The translations under genes and the position numbers were made by a program. Source: a virus. Taken from it: 26,827 nucleotides of DNA. Every line of letters begins with the position of its first letter. Position 1 is the stretch's first letter. Below, piece by piece: positions 18,663 through 23,785 of this stretch. Location of the stretch: the IMG/VR virus record IMGVR_UViG_3300023220_000367, positions 1-26,827 of that record; one strand, given 5' to 3'. The notes beneath the pieces are model-generated. The model worked only from the letters and a program-made list of their open reading frames with translations, was not told the DNA's origin and ran no database searches.

Positions 18663-19898
18663 TTAGTTTCTATCTTCTTCAAAATGACCTGTGTAATCGT
18701 TTAATTTAACATTGATAGATCCTGGCTTACCCATTGGGCCATGGCGTTTAATTTTTGCTATTCTGATTTCGCTCAACGCACTCGTTACGTCATCCCGCCA
18801 TACAATTACACCATAATCCGCTTTGTTCGCCCAATTAGCTGAACCTGATATGCTGTAAAGATTAGGGCATTCAACCTTACCGTAATTGGGTTTGGTGGGG
18901 TGAGCCACAACGATAACTAGGATATGGTATTGTCTGGCAAGCTTTTTTAACACACGAATAGCGCGTCCTGTGTATTCTGTTTCTGTTTCGTCACGATTTC
19001 TTTTATGTTCAATCTCATTCCAAGGATCAAGCAATAAGACTTTGCACCCATGTCGGATAATCGCTATTTCAGCCAATTCAACCAACTTTTCAAGGGATAG
19101 CTCTAAATCTGAGTCCATGGTATTGTTAGTGACAAACACAAAATGGTCTTGATAGAATTTTTTAGCCTTAACTGGCTCATGATCTGCCACATCCTTCATC
19201 GGTCTACGGAGAATCCGGCGAATAGAATTTTCTTCATACTCCTCGTTGTCGATTTCTGTAGAGCAGACACATATCTTCCAATCGTGCTTTTTTGCCAAGT
19301 TCAATATCAAATTATCCGCCCACTCAGATTTTCCATGCCCTGGTATTCCAGTAACCACCATGAACTTACCTAACAATATTTTAATGTGTTCATCATGGCT
19401 CCAGCCCATGCCAGTCGAATACGCTTTTTTTAGAACTGCCGGAATAATCGGGAACTCATCTGGTTTGTATAAACCAACAACAGGATAATCCTTAGCCTTG
19501 AGAATAATCTGCAACACTGACTGCTTACCAAACTTAGCCAGAACATCGCTTAGAGACTTGTAGCCCTCTGGGTATTCAATAAACTTACATCTTTCCGGCC
19601 TAAGTCTTTTTTGAATTTCGTGGTTTAATGTTTGGCCCGACTCTTCATTATTGCCAGATAGAATAAATGTTTTTACTTTGCCTATCAAAGGCTCGTTGTT
19701 CCAGTGGAATATCTGGTCTTGATATACCTGACCTTGATATAGCTTCACTGGCAAGGAAACCACCCAAGGATAACCGGATCGTTTCAAGGCCAAAGTATCT
19801 TCTGGCGTTTCCGTGATCACTAAAGGCTTCTCGTCTTCTATCGCCGCAACAAGACCAGACCAGTTCCAAAAAGTATAATCTTCTACTGGATCTTTCAT
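18663..19898 (-). CDS. Replicative DNA helicase, Twinkle/T7 gp4-type, with degenerate TOPRIM domain
   Basis: 411 residues from ATG at 19898, which overlaps the loader stop as ATGA; a GTG at 19907 is an alternative. Residues 25-122 have the TOPRIM outline (PLVITETPEDTLAL, VSLPV, FILSGNNEESGQTLNHEIQKRL, YPEGYKSLSDVL). The usual acidic DxD of primases reads NNE here, and the zinc finger and the rest of the primase are absent. The helicase core follows: Walker A TGIPGHGKS (183-191), Walker B KVLLLDPW (286-293), VVAHPTKP (330-337) and the SISGSANWANKADYGVIV motif near 349-366. It should unwind DNA at the fork as a hexamer. Primase activity is unlikely. Complexes with the loader encoded next door. 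Confidence 0.85.
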   Translation of the reverse strand: MKDPVEDYTFWNWSGLVAAIEDEKPLVITETPEDTLALKRSGYPWVVSLPVKLYQGQVYQDQIFHWNNEPLIGKVKTFILSGNNEESGQTLNHEIQKRLRPERCKFIEYPEGYKSLSDVLAKFGKQSVLQIILKAKDYPVVGLYKPDEFPIIPAVLKKAYSTGMGWSHDEHIKILLGKFMVVTGIPGHGKSEWADNLILNLAKKHDWKICVCSTEIDNEEYEENSIRRILRRPMKDVADHEPVKAKKFYQDHFVFVTNNTMDSDLELSLEKLVELAEIAIIRHGCKVLLLDPWNEIEHKRNRDETETEYTGRAIRVLKKLARQYHILVIVVAHPTKPNYGKVECPNLYSISGSANWANKADYGVIVWRDDVTSALSEIRIAKIKRHGPMGKPGSINVKLNDYTGHFEEDRN

Positions 19899-20620
19899 AA
19901 CATCCACCCTGGTTTTTTTGAATTACCGTTCAGCTTGTTAAATTCAATTGCATTGCAGTACCATGTCTTCCATGCTGCCGACCAATCAGCCATCATTGAC
20001 CCTTTAGCCACATGATGAGCCGAGAACTTATCTGCCTGAAAATTAGCGTTCAAATCTGACCGCCCATGTTTACGCCAATAAGCCTCCGCCAAGTCTCGCC
20101 ATTCGACAGATAATTCCCAATCTTCCGGTATTTTTGATTTGCGTTTTAAAGGTTTATTTTTTGGGGGTGATTTTTTGGTAGTTATATCTTGGTTATCTTG
20201 GTTATCTTGGTTTGTTTTGTCCCGCGTCTGTCCCGCGTCTGTCCCATTTGTGTCCCATTTGTGTCCCACATCTGTCCCAAAATCATAATCAACATCTTGA
20301 TATTTTGAATAATTACATATAGTTATGATGTTTTGCACTGTCCCGCTTTTGACCATCACCCTGTCCGCTTTTGTCATTAAATCAAGGAAACGGTCAACTT
20401 TATTCTTATTCCATTTCCACGCTTCCGCCAAATAACGTAAACTGGCTGTTAACTGACCACGCTTAAGATTTATTACGTTCGTTCCTATTCTGAAAGGCCT
20501 GTCTTTCCACGATGCGTTTTCTATTAAATAAAGGAACGCTTCGCGCTCTGTGTATGGTTGGGGTAAAAATATATCATCATCCATCCAACCGCGTACCATT
20601 AGGTAAAAATCTTTACTCAT
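19895..20620 (-). CDS. Replication initiator / helicase loader, lambda O-like arrangement
   Basis: 241 residues from ATG at 20620 (GAGGAC six bases upstream); a GTG at 20662 is less likely. Residues 1-110 form a winged-helix type domain: YLMVRGWMDDDIF, REAFLYLIENASWKDRPFRIG, LKRGQLTASLRYLAEAWKWNKNKVDRFLDLM. Residues about 112-165 are a polar linker, encoded by the 11-bp iterons and a 9-bp NQD repeat. Residues 166-230 (PEDWELSVEWRDLAEAYWRKHGRSDLNA and ADWSAAWKTWYCNAI) are the C-terminal domain common to phage loader proteins. This matches lambda O, where the linker carries the origin. It should bind the iterons and recruit the helicase. Overlaps both neighbours. Confidence 0.75.
   Translation of the reverse strand: MSKDFYLMVRGWMDDDIFLPQPYTEREAFLYLIENASWKDRPFRIGTNVINLKRGQLTASLRYLAEAWKWNKNKVDRFLDLMTKADRVMVKSGTVQNIITICNYSKYQDVDYDFGTDVGHKWDTNGTDAGQTRDKTNQDNQDNQDITTKKSPPKNKPLKRKSKIPEDWELSVEWRDLAEAYWRKHGRSDLNANFQADKFSAHHVAKGSMMADWSAAWKTWYCNAIEFNKLNGNSKKPGWML
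20188..20214 (+). repeat. Three tandem 9-bp repeats in the loader gene
   Basis: CTTGGTTAT, CTTGGTTAT, CTTGGTTTG. The period is a multiple of three and the minus-strand translation is the repeated NQD linker, so this array may reflect protein-level or slippage repeats, unlike the neighbouring 11-bp array. Confidence 0.8.
20218..20283 (+). repeat. Six 11-bp iterons, probable replication initiator binding sites
   Basis: TGTCCC begins at 20218, 20229, 20240, 20251, 20262 and 20273, an exact 11-bp pitch. The five bases after it come in pairs: GCGTC twice, ATTTG twice, then ACATC and AAAAT. The period is not a multiple of three, so the repeat is kept as DNA, not protein. Further copies TGTCCCG (20339) and TGTCCG (20362) lie beyond an AT-rich gap. 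Confidence 0.85.
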
Positions 20621-22139: not shown

Positions 22140-22658
22140 TTAAAATGGTAAATATTCTTCCATTTCATCCATTTGTATTTTAGTTTTTTTTTCATCAGAT
22201 AATCCGCTGAATTTGCAAAATTCATCATGCTCTTTAATATGTGAAATGTATTCGCAGAAATCCTTAACAGGACAGAAAGAATGTAAATCACCATCCACCT
22301 TATGTATGCGTGACATTGGTATGTTACAGAACCCTCTGTTCTTGGCATCAAAAAGATATTCACCACACAAAGATTCACTGTCAGGAACACAATAAAGATG
22401 ATACTTCAATCCCCGTGGTGTCTTTCTTATAATAACGCCATTAAATCTAATATATTCCCCTTCGCCGTACTCATCCTCATAAGCAGAAGTAGACATTAAA
22501 GTAGAGAAAGTAACTGGCTGACCAGCTTCAAAAATCTCAACCTTTAAATCACACCTTATCTTGTATGAAGTAAGGCCCAGGCCCTTAACAGCGCTCTTGG
22601 TGGTGTCTTGCTTTTCACAAGAGCCTGTAAGCTTGCATGTTCTACATGTTAATAGCAT
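22140..22658 (-). CDS. Hypothetical cysteine-rich protein, 172 residues
   Basis: First gene of the leftward early unit, starting about 30 bases after the predicted transcription start. CRTCKLTGSCEKQD at residues 5-18 is a CxxC..C cluster, followed by KGLGLTSYKIRCDLKVEIFE. The body is beta-like (GEYIRFNGVIIRKTPRG; YHLYCVPDSESLC), and further Cys/His residues (FCNIP, FCPVKDFCEY, DEFCKF) suggest zinc binding. AGGATAA precedes the ATG inside a leader copy. Family not recognised. Position next to the switch suggests an early host-takeover or regulatory role, which is speculation. Confidence 0.65.
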   Translation of the reverse strand: MLLTCRTCKLTGSCEKQDTTKSAVKGLGLTSYKIRCDLKVEIFEAGQPVTFSTLMSTSAYEDEYGEGEYIRFNGVIIRKTPRGLKYHLYCVPDSESLCGEYLFDAKNRGFCNIPMSRIHKVDGDLHSFCPVKDFCEYISHIKEHDEFCKFSGLSDEKKTKIQMDEMEEYLPF

Positions 22659-22695
22659 TGCTTATCCTTTCGGGCATTTGTTGTTAATCTCCTCT

Positions 22696-22724
22696 TTTCT
22701 ACACTAACGTTGTTGACATGTCAA
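22696..22724 (-). promoter_or_regulatory. Leftward early promoter
   Basis: Minus strand: -35 TTGACA (22724-22719), 17-base spacer, -10 TAGAAA (22701-22696). The -35 is perfect; the -10 matches four of six. Predicted start near 22689, just upstream of the leader and ATG at 22658. Confidence 0.6.
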
Positions 22725-22734
22725 TACACTAATG
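22701..22734. promoter_or_regulatory. Palindromic operator shared by both early promoters
   Basis: TTGACATGTCAA (22713-22724) is a perfect 12-bp palindrome whose two halves are the -35 boxes of the divergent promoters. It is flanked by direct repeats ACACTAACG (22701-22709) and ACACTAATG (22726-22734), 25 bp apart. A dimer bound here would block both promoters. The protein is unknown. Confidence 0.6.
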
Positions 22735-22741
22735 CTATAAA
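22713..22741 (+). promoter_or_regulatory. Rightward early promoter
   Basis: Plus strand: -35 TTGACA (22713-22718), 17-base spacer, -10 TATAAA (22736-22741). Near-consensus. Predicted start about 22748, giving a leader of about 43 bases before the recombinase start at 22791. Confidence 0.75.
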
Positions 22742-22790
22742 CTTCTCATAAACTGATGATTTCAAAATACACATAATAAGGAATTGAAAC

Positions 22791-23417
22791 GTGAATGTAG
22801 GTACAAAAGTAGGTTATGCAAGGACTTCAAGGGAAGATCAATGCCTTGATTTGCAGCTTAACGCATTAAAAAAAGAAGGGGTTGAAGACAAGCATGTTTT
22901 TCACGAACAATTATCTGCCTCGGCTAAAAAGAGGCCTCAATACGAACTAGCATTAAAGCGGTGTCGCAGCGGTGATATTTTAGTTGTGTGGAAGCTGGAC
23001 AGGTTGGGCCGATCATTGAAGCACCTTATTAAAGTCGTCGCGGATTTGGAGGAAAGGGGTGTCCAGGTGGTCAGTATCACTGAGAGAATTGATACCACCA
23101 CCCCCATGGGAAAACTTTTCTTTCACCTAATGGCTTCAATAGCCCAATTTGAGGCGGATTTAATCAGTGAGCGCACGAAAGCTGGTCAGGCGGCAGGAAG
23201 GGAGCGCGGGACCTATAAAACACGCCCTGTGACCTTTACAGAGACGCAGTGGAACACAATGGTTATTGCTTTTGAAGATGATGACAGGTTGGGCATATCA
23301 GCAGTCGCGCACAAGGCCGGCCTTAAATATGCAACGGTTTCCCGATACTGGGAAGAAATCAAGGGGGCTATGAGCTTTCATGACCGGTTCCCGTACGAGA
23401 AGGATAGAAAGAAATGA
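22791..23417 (+). CDS. Small serine recombinase (resolvase/invertase family)
   Basis: 208 residues from GTG at 22791 (AAGGA nine bases before). KVGYARTSREDQCLDLQLNA places the nucleophile at Ser13. SGDILVVWKLDRLGRSLKHL carries the conserved KLDRLGRS with the catalytic arginines. MGKLFFHLMASIAQFEADLI and SERTKAGQAAGRERG form the long E-helix. The end, LGISAVAHKAGLKYATVSRYW, is a C-terminal HTH. This is the full resolvase size. It could resolve phage genome multimers, invert a segment or act in integration; no crossover site was identified. It heads the rightward operon and overlaps the next gene by four bases. Confidence 0.85.
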   Translation: MNVGTKVGYARTSREDQCLDLQLNALKKEGVEDKHVFHEQLSASAKKRPQYELALKRCRSGDILVVWKLDRLGRSLKHLIKVVADLEERGVQVVSITERIDTTTPMGKLFFHLMASIAQFEADLISERTKAGQAAGRERGTYKTRPVTFTETQWNTMVIAFEDDDRLGISAVAHKAGLKYATVSRYWEEIKGAMSFHDRFPYEKDRKK

Positions 23418-23785
23418 GCGTGAGCAAGAAACAGCGTCAAGAGGTCTTTGATAAATCGGGCGGTTATTGCTGGTATTGCGGGGATGATTTGCCAGATCGG
23501 TGGCATGTTGATCATGTAATTCCGGTAATTAGAAATTATGGTGGGAGTATTGACCCAGTGAATATGCATCTTCACAATGTGGGTAATATGGTTCCAGCCT
23601 GTCCACCATGCAATCTTTTCAAATCATCCAACAGCTTAGAACAGTTTAGAAAAATGATTGAAAGACTAGCTGATTTCATGCGTGAATATTCAGTTAAATT
23701 TAGGAACGCTGAAAGATTTGGCATGATAGAAGACCGAAGAGATCCAGTAGAATTTTGGTTCGAAAAGAAAGGTAATTTGAAATGA
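23414..23785 (+). CDS. HNH endonuclease
   Basis: 123 residues. Zinc pairs C19-x2-C22 (CWYC) and C63-x2-C66 (CPPC) bracket the HNH core: HVDHVIPV with H34, GNMVPACPPCN with N58, and N67/K70 closing the fold. A stand-alone nuclease, perhaps a free-standing homing enzyme or a DNA-processing enzyme; in some phages HNH proteins help terminase, but this one is in the early operon far from terL. ATGA overlap at both ends. No intron or split gene is visible beside it. Confidence 0.85.
   Translation: MSVSKKQRQEVFDKSGGYCWYCGDDLPDRWHVDHVIPVIRNYGGSIDPVNMHLHNVGNMVPACPPCNLFKSSNSLEQFRKMIERLADFMREYSVKFRNAERFGMIEDRRDPVEFWFEKKGNLK

Follow-up and report, generated by a model that had tools for sequence, protein, structure and literature searches.

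Iterons at an 11-bp pitch inside a phage initiator gene as a probable replication origin of the SPP1 gp38/oriL type

A viral DNA of 26,827 nucleotides (positions 1 to 26,827 of IMG/VR record IMGVR_UViG_3300023220_000367; this whole stretch is called the window below) contains an initiator gene whose coding sequence carries six copies of the word GGGACA at a constant pitch. The array is very probably a phage replication origin embedded in the gene that encodes its initiator, of the type represented by gp38 and oriL of phage SPP1. An embedded origin had been proposed in the initial annotation of the window, and that proposal is supported here by the pitch in 152 homologues, by covariation of the iteron word with the recognition helix, and by the relationship to SPP1 gp38. 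The relatives further point to a more general reading, which we favor with some reserve: iteron word and recognition helix would swap together by a readable code at a pitch fixed at 11 bp, origin and initiator would form one self-contained coding module, and these modules would constitute a large unrecognised class of phage origins.

On the given strand, TGTCCC starts at 20218, 20229, 20240, 20251, 20262, and 20273, giving an exact 11-bp pitch, and is read as GGGACA in the sense of the gene, which lies on the minus strand (array, 20218–20278). The position scan and the minus-strand open reading frame thus agree with the earlier description of six copies within a coding region. The spaced pair TGTCCC-N5-TGTCCC, with one mismatch or fewer allowed, occurs five times in the window, exactly in every case, against 0.08 in shuffled sequences. 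The six-base core is perfect in all copies, and the spacers have diverged. Since the spacers GCGTC and ATTTG are common to neighboring copies, the copies in the array arise by tandem duplication. Two further elements of the form TGTCC(C)G, noted previously beyond the AT-rich tract, are also present on the minus strand: a seventh exact GGGACA (TGTCCC on the given strand) at 20339–20344 within the wing-coding sequence, 66 bp or 6 × 11 bp from the array copy at 20273, and a one-base variant, CGGACA (TGTCCG on the given strand), at 20362–20367, 23 bp past the satellite at 20339. No second, oriR-like GGGACA array occurs in the 26.8-kb window, and the record is possibly a fragment. The single-strand folding of the array region is no better than that of shuffled sequences (z 0.62).

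The initiator gene occupies 19895–20620 on the minus strand, with its ATG at 20620, its stop codon at 19895–19897, and 241 codons, as defined by the open reading frame, PHROG matches, and an AlphaFold model computed with 13 family members. PHROG matches are to a DnaD-like helicase loader (E 4.8e-18) and to phrog_35955, an unnamed family (E 1e-37); a Pfam scan of the 241-residue protein gave zero matches. In the model, an N-terminal winged-helix domain and a C-terminal DnaT-like helical domain are joined by a disordered linker. The winged-helix DNA-binding domain (about residues 10–108; 20297–20593, minus strand), also delimited by the family HMM, is modelled confidently, with pLDDT >90 over most of it, helices at residues 61–68 and 72–84, and wing strands at 88–92 and 97–101. 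Residues 112–154 between the folded domains are of very low confidence or disordered. This segment holds both residues 115–135, encoded by the array, and residues 137–146, encoded by 9-bp repeats described below, so the array does encode the linker between the two domains of the loader, as had been stated. The C-terminal three-helix domain (about residues 161–231; 19928–20140, minus strand) is again modelled confidently, over residues 172–231, and relatives sharing this tail match the Pfam family DnaT (PF17948) below its cutoff; the domain probably contacts the helicase or single-stranded DNA. The next gene of the operon (18663–19907, minus strand) encodes a DnaB-like helicase of the primase/helicase type (Pfam DnaB_C, E 1e-10; phrog_239 DNA primase/helicase, E 1.4e-51).

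Viral contigs were first scanned for four GGGACA words at 11 bp. Of the 85 array-bearing ORFs found, 51 are homologues of the window initiator, and all of these carry the array in sense orientation. At a control pitch of 10 bp, 77 stretches were found, with none of 69 array ORFs in the initiator family; at 12 bp there were at least 120 stretches, and among the matches listed, which are mostly simple coding repeats, 12 of 119 ORFs belong to the family. Because the control pitches also give many stretches, bare hit counts of the pattern prove nothing, and the weight of the array evidence lies in the protein context and in homologue sets gathered by protein sequence alone. In bacterial genomes, 4 of 117 occurrences of the 11-bp pattern fall in the initiator family, the remainder being mostly unrelated tandem DNA. 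We also observed many 11-bp tandem arrays of GGGACACGGAC that are unrelated to initiators on separate JAQVUB01 contigs (L343, L349, L361, L364, L382, and others), all from one Lentisphaeria metagenome bin (STF1_46).

Since the first set had been chosen by the pattern, homologue sets were then gathered by protein sequence alone, supplemented with phage records and reduced to non-redundant genes. An array was scored when a hexamer was present in three or more exact copies after the NYxxYQ motif at a given pitch, and the expectation was obtained by permuting synonymous codons within each gene. An 11-bp array was found in 49 of 66 genes in the first such set (0.5 expected) and in 94 of 152 in the full set (0.85 expected), so that the majority of relatives retain the pitch, and the refuting case named initially, relatives in which it is destroyed, does not apply to them. 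Among the other pitches in the 152 genes, 12 bp is represented by 21 genes (2.35 expected) and 9 bp by 16 (1.6 expected), 10 and 13 bp by none, and 22 bp is a harmonic of 11. The exact 11-bp array is absent in about 38% of the homologues, some of which have a 12-bp pitch, and relatives from Bacteroidota with 11-bp arrays are few (3 of 18). As the pitch in the 152 homologues far exceeds the synonymous-shuffle expectation, the constraint acts on the DNA, which is what the initial annotation had argued from 11 not being a multiple of three.

This result bears on the idea that the repeats are kept for the linker peptide (GT..GQ..RD), with the regularity of the DNA as a side effect. The array does lie within linker-coding sequence, and its translation is a quasi-repeat peptide. 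However, with an 11-bp pitch each copy falls in another frame, the pattern is destroyed by synonymous shuffles (down to 0.85 of 152 genes), the linker peptide is entirely different in relatives that use other words, and the linker is predicted to be disordered. A protein-level repeat is thus refuted by the shuffle result, and we consider it to have practically no chance of being correct. The spacers common to neighboring copies would also suit a neutral tandem repeat made by slippage. Against this, the spacers diverge around a perfect core, the same pitch and place recur in divergent genes with unrelated words, and satellites in phase with the array are set apart from it by conserved coding sequence. 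Slippage without selection is countered by this conservation in relatives and appears extremely unlikely.

The satellites are a family-wide feature. In 89 of 106 relatives, further word copies are found 40–126 bp upstream of the array. Synonymous shuffles would give 51 such copies; the total observed is 152, of which 143 fall at phases 0–4 modulo 11. The window satellite at 66 bp belongs among these in-phase copies.

The closest known counterpart is phage SPP1. An HMM built from the relatives of the window protein recognizes SPP1 gene 38 with E 5e-24 (window protein, E 7e-41). In PMC6316719, direct repeats of oriL are reported to lie within gene 38 next to an AT-rich DUE and to be bound by gp38. 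The linker of gene 38 contains four 11-bp units, ACGACAGAGAA, ACGACACGAAA, AAGACACGAAA, and AAGACACAGAA, followed by three 9-bp AT-rich units, AACAATGAT, AACAATGAA, and AACAATGAT; in our reading, the 11-bp units are the oriL direct repeats meant in that work. SPP1 and the window thus share a homologous N-terminal winged-helix domain, 11-bp repeats in the linker followed by 9-bp AT-rich repeats, and a replicative helicase encoded downstream of the initiator gene. The word differs, being of the ACGACA/AAGACAC type in SPP1 and GGGACA in the window. The C-terminal domain of gp38 is Phg_2220_C by Pfam, whereas the tail of the window protein is DnaT-like. For the separate loader of SPP1, gp39, and for its second origin, oriR, no counterpart is seen in the window. 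Such tails vary within the family (Phg_2220_C in SPP1 gp38, DnaB_2 in phage PVL), and neither of these two Pfam domains is present in the window protein. By sequence, then, the window protein belongs with gp38 through the N-terminal domain and the embedded repeats only.

The variety of words in the family came to light through a scrambled word, GGCAGA, intended as a negative control, which matched 36 arrays, including 8 in DnaD-like ORFs. More than ten different iteron words occur among the relatives, and the pitch and the place of the array stay. In the protein-only set they include GGGACA, CGATACA (CGATAC), GACGCA/AACGCA, GGGCCA, CAGCACA, GGCACA, CGGAACA, AGCGAAA, GACCA, and AACCA, and a Staphylococcus phage has seven copies of ACATCA. 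The linker peptides are wholly different between word classes, which is to be expected of a peptide whose sequence is set by the DNA. A subgroup (L496, L503, L504, L511, L516, and L530) has GATAC words at a 12-bp pitch together with a V-Q-R helix, like the 11-bp CGATAC relatives.

Across the family, these words are predicted by the identity of recognition helix 3 (residues 72–84; 20369–20407, minus strand), which is a helix in the model and was singled out by mutual-information and sliding-window tests. Among 54 genes, the column with the highest mutual information with word class is domain residue 67, corresponding to Asp76 of the protein in helix 3. This residue is mostly Asp, Ser, or Glu with GGGACA, Gln with CGATAC, and Arg with CGC-type words. 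We then predicted the word of each of 120 genes from the most similar 9-residue window among genes less than 50% identical elsewhere. The helix-3 window predicts the word in 0.47 of cases against a background of 0.17, most other windows reach about 0.1–0.25, and windows of the preceding helix reach 0.38. Wing windows also score well, but the wing was set aside as a predictor because satellite copies encode it. Outside this DNA-coded wing, no 9-residue window predicts the word better than helix 3. When all nine helix-3 residues are equal at less than 50% identity elsewhere, the word is shared in 82% of pairs (40 pairs), and when three of the nine are equal, in 7%. Word copies hardly ever overlap the sequence that encodes helix 3, and in the window none does, so the covariation of this helix with the word is not circular. 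On a tree from which these columns were left out, about 10 changes of the word and about 8 of residue 67 are counted; only two independent pairs of changes fall on well-supported branches, so the tree-based covariation is not significant alone. Pairings proposed from these sequences are V-Q-R with CGATAC, S-E-K, S-E-R, and S-E-Q with GGCCA, GACCA, and AACCA, respectively, and Asp or Glu plus V-R with GACGCA. The pairing of GGGACA with a K-type helix recurs in many relatives, so the initiator-site pairing, which was initially suggested as possibly new, is not unique to this phage.

Two AT-rich segments flank the array. On its 3' side in the gene sense, three in-frame 9-bp tandem repeats, AACCAAGAT (20185–20212, minus strand), encode the peptide NQDNQDNQD; these repeats, on the flank opposite to the tract annotated initially, were absent from that annotation. 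They lie in a block of 69% AT at 20156–20217 (minus strand), an arrangement found also in SPP1 gene 38. On the other side, the spacer between the satellite and the array (20280–20335, minus strand) has 11 G/C in 56 bases, slightly more than the count of about 10 given before, and encodes the conserved wing strand ITICNYxxYQ. Across the family, the AT content exceeds the gene mean by 0.16–0.23 in the 45 bp directly 3' of the array and by 0.12–0.16 at −75 to −30 bp, and the array itself is 0.12 below the mean. The autocorrelation of the 3' block is strongest at 9 bp across the family, and at least three 9-bp copies are found there in 20 genes, compared with none in a control segment 150–225 bp downstream.

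These observations make the 3' block the favored candidate for the DNA-unwinding element, clearly ahead of the spacer, because the spacer encodes ITICNYxxYQ and its composition may be driven by the protein. Within the origin reading, the spacer might instead be the DNA that melts, and the 9-bp repeats might be simply a flexible Asn/Asp-rich linker. The spacer is 78% AT in the window, has an AT excess at the same place in relatives, and possesses in-phase sites on both sides. However, in addition to the coding constraint on the spacer already mentioned, the AT excess is larger in the 3' block, whose 9-bp period would not be expected of an arbitrary linker, and in both SPP1 and lambda the AT-rich element adjoins the repeats. 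This variant is therefore doubtful. The earlier statement of an AT-rich tract after the array is valid for the window and its relatives; as the likelier unwinding element, the 3' block takes its place.

The covariation of word and helix speaks for binding at most and not for initiation, and a bound array could be an autoregulatory operator or a copy-control or incompatibility site rather than the start of replication. The array lies within the coding strand of the initiator gene itself, which is compatible with such a role, since bound protein would block transcription. However, the AT-rich 9-bp block adjoins the array across the family, for SPP1 gp38 this layout acts as an origin that includes a DUE, and the next gene encodes a replicative helicase. 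We thus regard an operator or copy-control site as very unlikely and retain the origin embedded in the initiator gene. A switch in cumulative GC skew at the array, put forward initially as a check, was not found in the window: the skew stays negative across the array and flips near 22.7 kb, where the gene orientation changes. Because the skew follows the gene strand, it is uninformative on the origin. The sign change lies at 22658–22791, next to a serine-recombinase-type gene (22791–23417) followed by an HNH gene (23414–23785).

Origins embedded in initiator genes are already known for lambda O, SPP1 gp38, and pSK41 Rep. Lambda iterons are about 18 bp long and differently laid out. The window pitch of 11 bp and core of 6 bp are clearly distinct from these, as recognized in the initial annotation. 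In lambda, iterons occupy the middle of the O gene and adjoin an AT-rich tract (PMC7466680), and the window shares this arrangement. The comparison with lambda O made at the outset is valid for this mid-gene layout and not for homology, as no lambda O family is among the PHROG matches of the window protein, which are DnaD-like loaders and unknowns. By the searches made, the protein appears to be an initiator of the SPP1-gp38/DnaD type rather than a homologue of lambda O.

The RepA_N initiators have DnaD-like domains. In one of them, pSK41 Rep, a winged-helix N-terminal domain binds Rep boxes situated centrally in rep, and the origin encodes the linker; pPR9 is a natural swap of the domain plus the origin (PMC5703833). 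The winged-helix N terminus, the central sites, and the origin-encoded linker are all shared with the window, but pSK41 is a plasmid with four Rep boxes and the window has a phage array of 11-bp words. The window protein shows weak fold matches to 4pt7, 4pql, and 5kbj and no match to the RepA_N Pfam domain (PF06970). We take these three structures to be RepA_N-type initiators. Francisella phage vB_FhiM_KIRK likewise has putative iterons and an AT-rich region within the gene of a replication protein, which contains an internal peptide repeat (KDNNK, three times) and a Phg_2220_C domain; in the passages of PMC7924643 on this gene, the origin is a prediction for a single phage, given without pitch or specificity analysis.

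Arrays of the same word occur in other proteins and at other places. GGGACA arrays at 11 bp are found in other phage initiators of the viral contigs L009 (1–4833), L014, L077, and L017; in L009, the initiator belongs to Phage_rep_org_N (PF09681, E 1.4e-27), and its linker-coding sequence carries the array in antisense orientation. Embedding iterons may thus be a design that recurs among unrelated initiators. Antisense GGGACA arrays at 10 bp lie near residue 730 of ORFs of 806–816 residues (L122, L120, L115, L151, and similar), and Pfam identifies the L122 product as a primase-polymerase/AAA protein. Short proteins with a KRRQR-like motif (L025, L013, L060, L123, and L145) have GGGACA linker arrays at 10 or 11 bp; in L025 and L123, the tail resembles the DnaT-like tail of the window protein, the N terminus is different, and no Pfam match was found. 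In several members of the family (L217, 2735–2776; L253, 2813–2854; L023, L066, L095, L103, and L011), the array lies inside the wing hairpin and not after it.

From these sequences we infer the following course of initiation. The winged-helix domain would bind GGGACA words spaced by a helical turn, namely the six of the array and one or two satellites in the wing-coding DNA, and the bound initiators would assemble into a nucleoprotein complex along a single face of the helix. The resulting strain would melt the adjoining AT-rich DNA, with the 9-bp-repeat block at 20156–20217 as the likeliest site, and the DnaT-like C-terminal domain would then help to place the DnaB-like helicase encoded by the next gene on the origin in use. 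The linker peptide would be a by-product of the DNA.

In the open-licence literature, we found no description of a constant 11-bp pitch with word/helix covariation across a diverse initiator family and no paper naming GGGACA in a phage origin; an earlier description of the pitch and of word/helix switching may exist. The findings would allow origins and their protein partners to be located from sequence in many uncharacterised phages, and would offer a series of naturally occurring winged-helix/DNA pairs for reading and testing specificity. They would also explain a variable disordered linker as encoded DNA and not as a selected peptide, and suggest how replication specificity can change within one gene while the match between initiator and origin is kept. 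If initiator and origin do form the self-contained modules proposed above, the family would comprise many orthogonal replication specificities mounted on interchangeable C-terminal tails for helicase recruitment.
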